Source: Acidimicrobiaceae bacterium
Lineage (GTDB): Bacteria; Actinomycetota; Acidimicrobiia; Acidimicrobiales; Poriferisodalaceae
DNA: 64,000 bases
Direction of reading: 5' to 3'
NCBI GenBank assembly: GCA_905182565.1
Contig: CAJJCB010000023.1
Span: forward strand, 1-64,000
The notes beneath the pieces are model-generated. The model was not told the origin of the DNA. It did not search any database and worked only from the letters and a program-made list of their open reading frames with translations. How positions within the stretch are numbered: position 1 is the first letter of the stretch; each line of letters opens with the position of its first letter. Positions 28,284 to 31,733 of the stretch are shown one piece after another. A program made the position numbers and the translations under genes.

Positions 28284-31200
28284 ATGTCCAAATCTCTTGT
28301 AATCGTCGAGTCACCGGCGAAGGCGAAAACTATTGGCGGATTCCTCGGCGATGATTACACCGTCGTCGCATCTGTTGGGCATATACGCGACTTGGCTACC
28401 AAAGCAACATTGCCCGGTGAGCTAAAAGAAAAATGGTGGGCCTTTCTGGGCGTCGATGTAGAAAGCAGTTTCAAGGCTTACTACGTTGTGAGCGATGGAG
28501 CGGCGAGCGTTGTTCGCAATCTTAAAAAAGAATTGAAACAAGCCTCGGAGCTCTATCTAGCGACAGATGAGGACCGCGAAGGCGAAGCAATAGCTTGGCA
28601 CTTGTTAGAAGAACTACAGCCAAAAACTAACCTGCCTGTAAAACGGATGGTCTTCCACGAGATAACACAAAAAGCCATAGACGAAGCACTATCTAACACT
28701 CGAAGCATCGATAACAACTTGGTCGAGGCTCAAGAAGCGCGACGTATCTTGGACCGGCTATACGGTTTCGAGGTATCAAATAAGCTCGTCACAATTGGAG
28801 GCCCAGGTACTTCTGCTGGCCCGGTTCAGAGCCCAACGACTCGCCTAGTTGTAGAACGTGAGTTGGAAAGAGCGGCCTTCATCGACGCAGGATATTGGAG
28901 TCTCGGCGTGCCATTAACGTCTTCGGTGAATGAAACTTTCAGCAGTCGCTTAGTTTCTTTAGACGGGCTTCGAATTGCCTTAACAAAAGATTTTGGTGAA
29001 GACGGAAAACTAAAAAGCACCAAAGTAGTGGCATTAACAGAAACCGATGCTGTACGTATTTCCGAAAATATCGAAGGAGTTCCTTTCACCGTCGATTCAG
29101 TAGATCATGATGCCTACCGACGAAGGCCTCAGGCACCTTTCACTACTTCAACCTTTCAGCAAGCCGCCAGTTCCAAACTAGGGTTGAACTCAAAGATAGC
29201 CATGGGAGCGGCCCAAAGCTTATATCAGCAGGGCTACATCACATACATGCGTACCGACAGCACAACGTTGTCGGACAGCGCAATGCGAGCAGCGCGAAGC
29301 GTTGCAACAGAAAAATACGGTTCAGACCACCTACCTGCTTCGCCCCGTCAGTATCAAAGCAAAGTTCAAAACGCACAAGAAGCTCACGAAGCGATACGGC
29401 CGGCAGGCGACACCTTCAAAGAACCACGACAGGTTCGCATTGAGACTAACGAAAGTTTAGCAAGAGTTTACGAATTGATTTGGCAACGAACCATTGCTTC
29501 ACAGATGACAGATACCACGGGCGAGACGGTGCGAATGCGCTTGTCTGGATCAGTGGAGGTGCCAGATGACCAGACTTCCAAAAATCTATTACTTGGTGTA
29601 AGTGGAACAGTTATTTCTCATGAAGGCTTTCGTCGTGTCTATTCAGATGATGCTGAAGGGAACTCAGCAGAAGACTCAGAAACCGTTACAGCTGAAATAG
29701 CCCTTCCAGACCTCAAAGTTGGCGATACAGCGATACCAAGTCGTGGCGTTCCGCAAGGCCGGTCCACAAAACCCCCGGCGAGATACACAGATGCATCCCT
29801 AGTCAAAAAAATGGAAGAACTCGGTATCGGTCGCCCTTCAACCTACGCATCAACTATCGAAAGAATTTTGAATAACGGATATGCCTTCAGAAAAGGAAGG
29901 GCTCTTTGCGCAACGGCAAAAGCAATAATGGTAGTGAACGTTCTCGGCCACAAGCTTCCAAAGCTAGTTGACTTTGAAGAACGCAAAAAAATGGAAGAAG
30001 ACCTCGACTCCATTTCTAACGGTCGTTTAGATCGATCAACATTTTTAAGTAATCTGTACTGGGGGCTAGGCGGTTTGAACCGAACTGAGCTCACAGACGG
30101 AAAAGACTACGAATTCCTTGATAACTCAGCAAAGTGTGGTTGCAACGCGATTAATTGTAGAACCAGAGTGATCGCTGGGGATCCCGGTCTGCATTTCAAA
30201 GCAGTAAATAACTTTGTTGATGTCCAGTGGTCAGAAAAATCCCATTATTTAGGTCGAATCCCAGAAGACTTAGTCGGTGTAGAGGGATTAGAAGCAATAG
30301 ACCCATCACTAGTAGGCGAAGTAAGGCTTGGCTATCTCAGGAGCCCGTATCTCAGAGTTGGAGATGAAGGAGCAACCACCAATATCCAACCCGATCAACC
30401 AATCGACGAATTAGACATACGTAGCGCTTGGGAGTATTTAAATAAACCTGATGCGCGGCTCCTAGGCGAAGTTCCAAATCAAATTCTGGCGCACGCAACG
30501 CCCAGTTCCTTTCCGCAACCATGGCCAGAAGAAGACTACATTTGGCCTAATCCCGGCGATGTTGGAAAGCCGGTATATGTACGACCCGGTACTTTCGGAC
30601 CGTATGTTTCATTAGGTGAGTTTGCTAAATTTCCTAAGCTTTCAACAAAAGAAGGACGTCTAATAAAACTCCCTCATCATCGAAAGCCATGCAAGGTCGC
30701 CATGGCCTATATGCGCATGCTGATTGATTCTGAATCCAACGAAGCAATCCTGGAAGTAATTAATGCCCCCAAAAGAGGAGTAGGGAAAGCTTCGTTAGAC
30801 AAACTTGTTGCGAACGCAGAAGAAAATAGCGAGAGTTTGTTACAGGCGTTTAAGAAAGCCTCAGACCTTGGAATAAAAGGAAATGCCTTAGCAGGAATTA
30901 ATGAATTTTTAGATGTTATTGCGTACCTTGATGGTTTAAAATCTGAGAGACCAGACGAGTTGGTTCGAAACATTCTACAAAAATCGGGTTACTGGGCGGA
31001 AATAGAAACTGGTGCTTCACCAGAAGCCAACATTGAGATTCTTGAAAATTTTGTTCAAGTTATCGCTGAGTTTGATTCAGCAGAAGCTGTTGTGGATGAA
31101 TTTTCTGCTTTGCAAGCGCTGAAAGATTTACCGAAACCGAAAACCTCATCGCTATTTAAATTCATGACAGTTGAAGACGTAACCCTGGAAGAAGCGCTAG

Positions 31201-31733
31201 CTCTGTTAAGCCTTCCGCGAGAAATTATTCACCCTTTTTGTGGTAACCCGATAATTATCTCCAACGGACCATTCGGCCCTTATCTGAAACACACCTGCGA
31301 CGATGGACCGAATTTAAATGATGGTCCTGATAATGGTCCAGATGAGTTAATCTCTGCAGAAGATCTGAAAATCTTTGGAAAATCTGAAACTCGCAGCCTA
31401 GATAATGAAGATCAATTACTTTCATTGACGCTTGAAGAAGCTGTAAAGAAACTTAAAGAGCCTAAAAAGTTTGGAAGAATGGCGAAAGCGCCACTTCAAG
31501 AATTTGGGAAAGATCCTGACTCAGGCAATATGGTTTCGTTAAAAGATGGAAAATTTGGACCGTACGTCACAGATGGTGAATACATGGCGTCACTTGCCTT
31601 GGGAGACATACCTGAAGACTTGACGTTCGATCGGGCACTTGAACTTTTGGCAGAAAAAAAACTAAAAGGTCCACCTAAAAAGAAGGCCTACGCAAAAAAG
31701 CGTGCCCCCAAATTTAATAAAACTAAAAAATGA
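28284..31733 (+). CDS. topA: DNA topoisomerase I with inserted UvrD/PcrA 2B-like domain
   Basis: 1149 aa, about 200 longer than the usual actinobacterial TopA. The toprim domain (VIVESPAKAKTIGGFL; ATDEDREGEAIAWHL) and the catalytic tyrosine (YMRTDS, about Y321) are intact. A CGCNAINC cluster lies near 617. C-terminal topoisomerase repeats follow: FGPYVSLGEF near 775, GPFGPYLKH and DGKFGPYVTDGEYMAS, then a Lys-rich tail. Between the second and third repeats, residues about 800-945 instead read like helicase subdomain 2B: AMAYMRML, INAPKRGVGKASLDKL, LVRNILQKSGYWAEIE, ILENFVQVIAEF. No helicase ATPase motifs are present. The enzyme relaxes negative supercoils. Confidence 0.95.
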   Translation: MSKSLVIVESPAKAKTIGGFLGDDYTVVASVGHIRDLATKATLPGELKEKWWAFLGVDVESSFKAYYVVSDGAASVVRNLKKELKQASELYLATDEDREGEAIAWHLLEELQPKTNLPVKRMVFHEITQKAIDEALSNTRSIDNNLVEAQEARRILDRLYGFEVSNKLVTIGGPGTSAGPVQSPTTRLVVERELERAAFIDAGYWSLGVPLTSSVNETFSSRLVSLDGLRIALTKDFGEDGKLKSTKVVALTETDAVRISENIEGVPFTVDSVDHDAYRRRPQAPFTTSTFQQAASSKLGLNSKIAMGAAQSLYQQGYITYMRTDSTTLSDSAMRAARSVATEKYGSDHLPASPRQYQSKVQNAQEAHEAIRPAGDTFKEPRQVRIETNESLARVYELIWQRTIASQMTDTTGETVRMRLSGSVEVPDDQTSKNLLLGVSGTVISHEGFRRVYSDDAEGNSAEDSETVTAEIALPDLKVGDTAIPSRGVPQGRSTKPPARYTDASLVKKMEELGIGRPSTYASTIERILNNGYAFRKGRALCATAKAIMVVNVLGHKLPKLVDFEERKKMEEDLDSISNGRLDRSTFLSNLYWGLGGLNRTELTDGKDYEFLDNSAKCGCNAINCRTRVIAGDPGLHFKAVNNFVDVQWSEKSHYLGRIPEDLVGVEGLEAIDPSLVGEVRLGYLRSPYLRVGDEGATTNIQPDQPIDELDIRSAWEYLNKPDARLLGEVPNQILAHATPSSFPQPWPEEDYIWPNPGDVGKPVYVRPGTFGPYVSLGEFAKFPKLSTKEGRLIKLPHHRKPCKVAMAYMRMLIDSESNEAILEVINAPKRGVGKASLDKLVANAEENSESLLQAFKKASDLGIKGNALAGINEFLDVIAYLDGLKSERPDELVRNILQKSGYWAEIETGASPEANIEILENFVQVIAEFDSAEAVVDEFSALQALKDLPKPKTSSLFKFMTVEDVTLEEALALLSLPREIIHPFCGNPIIISNGPFGPYLKHTCDDGPNLNDGPDNGPDELISAEDLKIFGKSETRSLDNEDQLLSLTLEEAVKKLKEPKKFGRMAKAPLQEFGKDPDSGNMVSLKDGKFGPYVTDGEYMASLALGDIPEDLTFDRALELLAEKKLKGPPKKKAYAKKRAPKFNKTKK

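Follow-up and report, generated by a model that had tools for sequence, protein, structure and literature searches.

What is a domain of a DNA helicase doing inside a topoisomerase I, and is it really a helicase domain? The question arises from the window analysed here, a stretch of 64,000 nucleotides from an Acidimicrobiaceae bacterium (contig CAJJCB010000023.1), whose forward strand carries topA at positions 28284–31733 as one open frame coding for 1149 residues. The product matches the TopA of Mycobacterium smegmatis (6pcm) with E = 3e-176, and in the whole protein Pfam recognises Toprim, Topoisom_bac, four stretches of Toprim_C_rpt and, at residues 799–858, UvrD_C. The catalytic core (Toprim and Topoisom_bac, residues 1–594, positions 28284–30065, delimited by Pfam, by the match to PDB sequences and by alignment) has its catalytic tyrosine in ITYMRTDST, which meets the criteria of type IA enzymes. 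Judged from its sequence, the enzyme is a type IA bacterial topoisomerase I of the actinobacterial kind; that it relaxes negatively supercoiled DNA is inferred, in the absence of data on the protein. One core motif is unusual: nearly all relatives have SAGRVQS and the window enzyme has SAGPVQS (AGPVQSP at residues 178–184, positions 28815–28835), an Arg to Pro change that also occurs in three TopAs of another family, f132 (SGGPVQSPTT).

Alignment with relatives delimits an insertion of 171 residues (779–949, positions 30618–31130), located after GTFGPYVSLG and before PKPKTSSLF, that is between the second and the third C-terminal repeats. It consists of a linker of 20 residues (EFAKFPKLSTKEGRLIKLPH, positions 30618–30677), whose homologue in other insert-bearing TopAs reads RPPKMPAASSPGGQLLALPL, followed by about 148 residues (799–946, HRKPCKVAMAYMRML ... 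ALQAL, positions 30678–31121) identified by Pfam, phmmer, Foldseek and a profile of the insert family. The TopA repeats then resume (PKPKTSSLFKFM..., positions 31131–31733, from Pfam and alignment) and run to a C-terminal end of 42 residues with a short basic tail. The GC content is 0.40 in the insertion (GC3 0.32) and 0.465 in the remainder of topA (GC3 0.40). Repeated DGPN/DNGPD motifs fill a stretch between repeats 3 and 4 (about 31297–31390, residues about 1005–1036) that is specific to the window enzyme and absent from the aligned relatives.

The evidence that this segment derives from subdomain 2B of UvrD/PcrA is of several kinds. The Pfam match to UvrD_C stands at 5e-4 when the entire TopA is searched; with the segment alone it reaches 2e-5, just below the gathering cut-off. 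With phmmer, residues 800–949 match the PDB sequences of PcrA (2pjr/1pjr, E = 3e-13), Rep (1e-7) and UvrD (2e-7) collinearly over nearly the whole segment, and when the entire TopA is compared with PDB sequences, the PcrA match begins at residue 798. A profile built from the insert family finds PcrA (4e-25), Deinococcus radiodurans UvrD (4e-18) and Mycobacterium tuberculosis UvrD1 (3e-16). The AlphaFold2 model of the insert, obtained with an alignment of 15 sequences, is all-helical, with ten helices and a pLDDT of 77; a Foldseek search of the PDB with this model returns UvrD, PcrA, Rep, AddAB and AdnAB helicases exclusively in the leading 37 positions, UvrD/PcrA/Rep ranking first (TM-scores of 0.57–0.70, normalised on the query). 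No helicase ATPase domain was found by Pfam in the whole window TopA, which fulfils neither the definition of a UvrD-like helicase (Walker A/B, motifs V and VI) nor, by the same search, that of an enzyme of the reverse gyrase type, in which a helicase ATPase module is fused to a topoisomerase. As far as homology and the predicted fold can tell, residues 799–946 are thus a complete UvrD/PcrA 2B subdomain without a motor. The full-length AlphaFold2 model (13 sequences, pLDDT 45) is too poor to position 2B on the core.

These results bear out the first-pass annotation, which had proposed a UvrD/PcrA 2B-like segment at positions 30681–31120, aligned in order with 2B, placed between the second and third TopA repeats with TopA resuming at PKTSSLF, and lacking any helicase motor; its coordinates agree with those of the 2B-homologous part, to which the linker has to be added to obtain the whole insertion. 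It had also named two outcomes that would refute it, namely no UvrD/PcrA match in a Pfam or structure search, or the predicted fold of an ordinary TopA repeat, and neither was obtained.

The columns that PcrA and the inserts have in common include a PKRG[IV]G stretch and SGY. The former contains the counterpart of the GIG motif, by which 2B contacts duplex DNA in UvrD/PcrA (PMC13238157): it reads PKRGVGK in the window (positions 30768–30788, from alignment and profile), hence RGVG, and almost every copy of the insert has R-G-[IV]-G at this place. The motif is kept in the f1 group, which belongs to the family of the window genome, and in nearly all copies from families f30 and f132, the exceptions being EGLG and DGLG in two f30 copies and GVS in one copy. 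On the contrary, helicase-specific positions have drifted; for example, the KD found at the start of the 2B of PcrA is KV in nearly all inserts (residue 805). The net charge of the grafted domains ranges from −14 to +3 and is mostly −9 or higher, compared to −7 to −14 for the 2B of PcrA; with −10, the window insert is as acidic as the latter, while most other grafted domains are less so.

The survey of related TopAs that the first-pass annotation had suggested shows that 74 genomes, distributed over three families within a single order, share this insert and its position in topA: 41 of 48 in f30, 19 of 39 in f1 (where three matches are partial, interrupted by contig ends or base uncertainties) and 14 sampled genomes in f132, as counted by genome searches with the insert and its flanks, in which the other matches cover the full span. 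The seven f30 genomes without it are mostly less complete assemblies. Most of the order has no insert, and sampling 395 genomes of the class and 296 of the phylum revealed no carrier outside the three families; these searches being samples, other phyla may still contain carriers. The matches listed in a plasmid search are helicase genes. The named carriers are uncultured actinobacteria of the Acidimicrobiales type, several of them marine, including MedAcidi-G3, and come from several independent projects. In one congener of the window organism (G001), topA is split over two contigs, one of which starts near residue 955, so that its insert state is undetermined. A highly divergent insert-bearing TopA occurs in one f30 genome (L087, G455), with TYPRTDNPSL at the active-site tyrosine instead of TYMRTDSTTL.

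When 37 inserts are placed in one tree with the 2B domains of 20 PcrA sequences, a branch with 100/100 support separates the two sets; because the inserts all group apart from the helicase domains, we infer from the phylogeny that 2B was grafted into TopA a single time, in or near the ancestor of f30 and f132. When this tree is rooted on PcrA, the f30 inserts diverge first and both f1 groups are nested among them, as they are in a tree that leaves out f132. The flanking parts of the gene disagree with each other. With residues 1–776, the f1 enzymes other than the window copy form one clade with a support of 100, and a clade of insert-bearing enzymes is rejected (AU test, p 1e-6); with residues 950–1128, it is the single f1 clade that is rejected (p-AU 2e-6), while a clade of insert carriers is not (p-AU 0.48). 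The identity profiles of the main f1 group switch at residues 777/778: upstream the nearest sequences are those of insert-free sisters, downstream they are mostly from f30. This group is therefore a mosaic, with a vertically inherited backbone (1–776) and a gene end of the f30/f132 type from the insert to the C-terminus. The conflict between backbone and downstream segment, together with the position of the switch, leads us to conclude, from these alignments and trees, that there was one graft and that the insert later entered f1, at least once through recombination replacing the C-terminal third of topA. The backbone of the window TopA, also from f1, groups with f30/f132-type TopAs and is of a fast-evolving type shared with f132 and some f30 enzymes. 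Here a transfer of the whole gene is likely on phylogenetic grounds, the long branch leaving its exact placement unsure. We also considered two separate gains of the insert, since the backbone trees require two changes, and dropped this scenario: the downstream segment follows the insert and not the backbone, and the pooled C-terminal tree that had suggested two gains mixed both signals, with residues 600–776 prevailing.

The insert-bearing enzymes differ from other TopAs of the order in a second respect. Lysine tails of actinobacterial TopA confer processivity and keep the enzyme on DNA (PMC7398561). The tail has 36–81 residues with 11–30 K/R in 24 insert-free TopAs of the order, versus 20–42 residues with 3–14 K/R in the window enzyme and 36 other insert-bearing TopAs compared; the window enzyme has the upper values (42 residues, 14 K/R), the other members having 20–34 residues and 3–12 K/R, and it does not meet the criterion of a long lysine-rich tail. 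In a further insert-free set of the order nearly all tails are long, even in low-GC members, G234 (34 residues, 9 K/R) coming closest to an exception. The association counts as one event, because insert and tail lie on one transferred segment, so that we consider the link as suggestive and not as a test of function. The idea that the insert and tail loss are independent, repeated partners is weakened by this shared segment and by the short or missing tails of several families that lack the insert and belong to other orders within the class (L134, L136, L138-L140, L142, L172-L174, L180-L184). The GC content was rejected as a cause of tail loss: f30 members with high GC have short tails and insert-free members with low GC have long ones.

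What the domain does is, contrary to its identity, position and spread, not established. The repeats of mycobacterial TopA bind single-stranded DNA. The C-terminal domains of E. coli TopA also bind single strands (PMC4678816), while it is duplex DNA that the GIG face of 2B contacts in UvrD/PcrA monomers (PMC13238157). To judge from the known helicase fold, 2B is an insertion domain of subdomain 2A whose two ends emerge together, and it would therefore fit a surface loop between TopA repeats without either repeat being broken. TopA requires a single strand adjoining a duplex, and a 2B domain beside a repeat would be well placed to grip that duplex. Its conserved GIG face may add this grip next to the single strand held by the repeats and thus keep the enzyme at the single-strand/duplex junctions of underwound DNA, replacing by other means what the lysine tail does to hold the enzyme on DNA. 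We favour this reading, in which the grafted 2B is an added duplex or junction grip, with a probability of roughly one half; that the domain touches DNA and thereby influences relaxation is inferred, without biochemical data. It has to accommodate the degraded GIG of three copies, the acidity of the window insert and a tail link that amounts to one event.

The conservation of the GIG motif agrees with duplex contact and equally with a 2B–2B interface; it cannot single out DNA, as UvrD1 uses one and the same face for the two purposes (PMC13238157). It is thus possible, if tentative, that this face docks on the 2B of PcrA/UvrD, in a heterodimer, or on another partner such as RNA polymerase, for a coupled action, at R-loops for example. 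In the case of M. tuberculosis UvrD1 and of E. coli UvrD, dimers form via 2B, the GIG region being close to the interface (PMC13238157), and MutL and PriC activate monomers of the UvrD family, MutL by way of 2B (PMC13238157; PMC8318588). Crosslinks of 2B to the flap tip of the RNA polymerase beta subunit have been reported (cited in PMC8318588), and E. coli TopoI is reported to act together with transcribing RNA polymerase (PMC9352719). However, the main contact of PcrA with RNA polymerase is its Tudor domain and not 2B (PMC8318588), which makes a polymerase contact the weaker half of the functional idea of the first-pass annotation, a built-in contact to duplex or RNA polymerase. Intact PcrA with its own 2B is present in insert-bearing genomes, including that of the window, where pcrA is a separate gene, but the two 2B domains of the window genome are just 35% identical. 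The position of Cys451 of UvrD1 is occupied by K, R or another residue in most inserts; since cysteine is limited to two f30 copies, a disulfide-linked pair cannot be general. In these two copies (L070 and L072, GVGKGALEC), the cysteine aligns with the one that forms the disulfide of the UvrD1 dimer. The more specific proposal that the grafted 2B recognises the corresponding domain of the PcrA present in the same cell, making a topoisomerase I–helicase unit through a shared duplicated domain, is in our opinion quite improbable.

It is also unlikely that the grafted 2B is merely carried along, as a structural or neutral element that came in by illegitimate insertion, folds by itself and is tolerated without having any specific role. 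Its dN/dS is about twice the core value in most of the ten pairs compared, the GIG motif is degraded in a few copies, and most of the order lives without it. However, with dN/dS values of 0.08–0.24, the insert is under purifying selection; its length is nearly constant (170 or 171 residues, at an identical site, in 16 f1 copies), it is kept in f30 with non-carriers being mostly less complete, and it persisted after its transfer into f1. Last, an assembly chimera of topA and a pcrA gene, for which one could invoke the 27 contigs of the window assembly and the broken topA of the congener, one contig of which ends near the insert, is refuted by the recurrence of the same insert, as a divergent group of its own, in 74 genomes from independent projects and by an intact PcrA of the same genome, so distant from it.

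Compared to known systems, the insert resembles the 2B of UvrD, PcrA and Rep (within PF13361, UvrD_C) in sequence, predicted all-helical fold, GIG motif and complete domain boundaries; it differs in lacking the motor subdomains 1A, 1B and 2A, in sitting in a topoisomerase and in the drifted residues at the 2A/2B border. The topoisomerases I of Mycobacterium and Streptomyces share the catalytic core and the zinc-free Toprim_C_rpt repeats, whereas the insert-bearing enzymes have a domain of helicase origin separating the second repeat from the third, and their lysine tail is short or absent. Reverse gyrase also joins a type IA topoisomerase to helicase-derived sequence; it carries a whole SF2-type ATPase, while the window TopA has only a motor-less SF1A accessory domain. 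The C-terminal region of Chlamydia trachomatis TopA has likewise taken up a domain from elsewhere, but there SWIB replaces the C-terminal domain (PMC12445093), whereas 2B is inserted inside the repeat array. We found no description of a helicase 2B inside a topoisomerase in the open-access full-text literature searched, and the words helicase and UvrD do not occur in a survey devoted to the C-terminal domains of type IA enzymes (PMC9369019).

The role of 2B in UvrD-family helicases is disputed, duplex contact (now thought to be inhibitory) and dimer interface being mutually exclusive (PMC13238157). A naturally excised 2B, under selection in another DNA enzyme, allows the domain to be studied without the motor. 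Pairing with PcrA, if true, would be a bacterial helicase–topoisomerase coupling of a previously undescribed kind. The finding also means that recombination can swap, as one unit, the C-terminal region of a bacterial topoisomerase I, on which DNA holding and contacts with partners depend.
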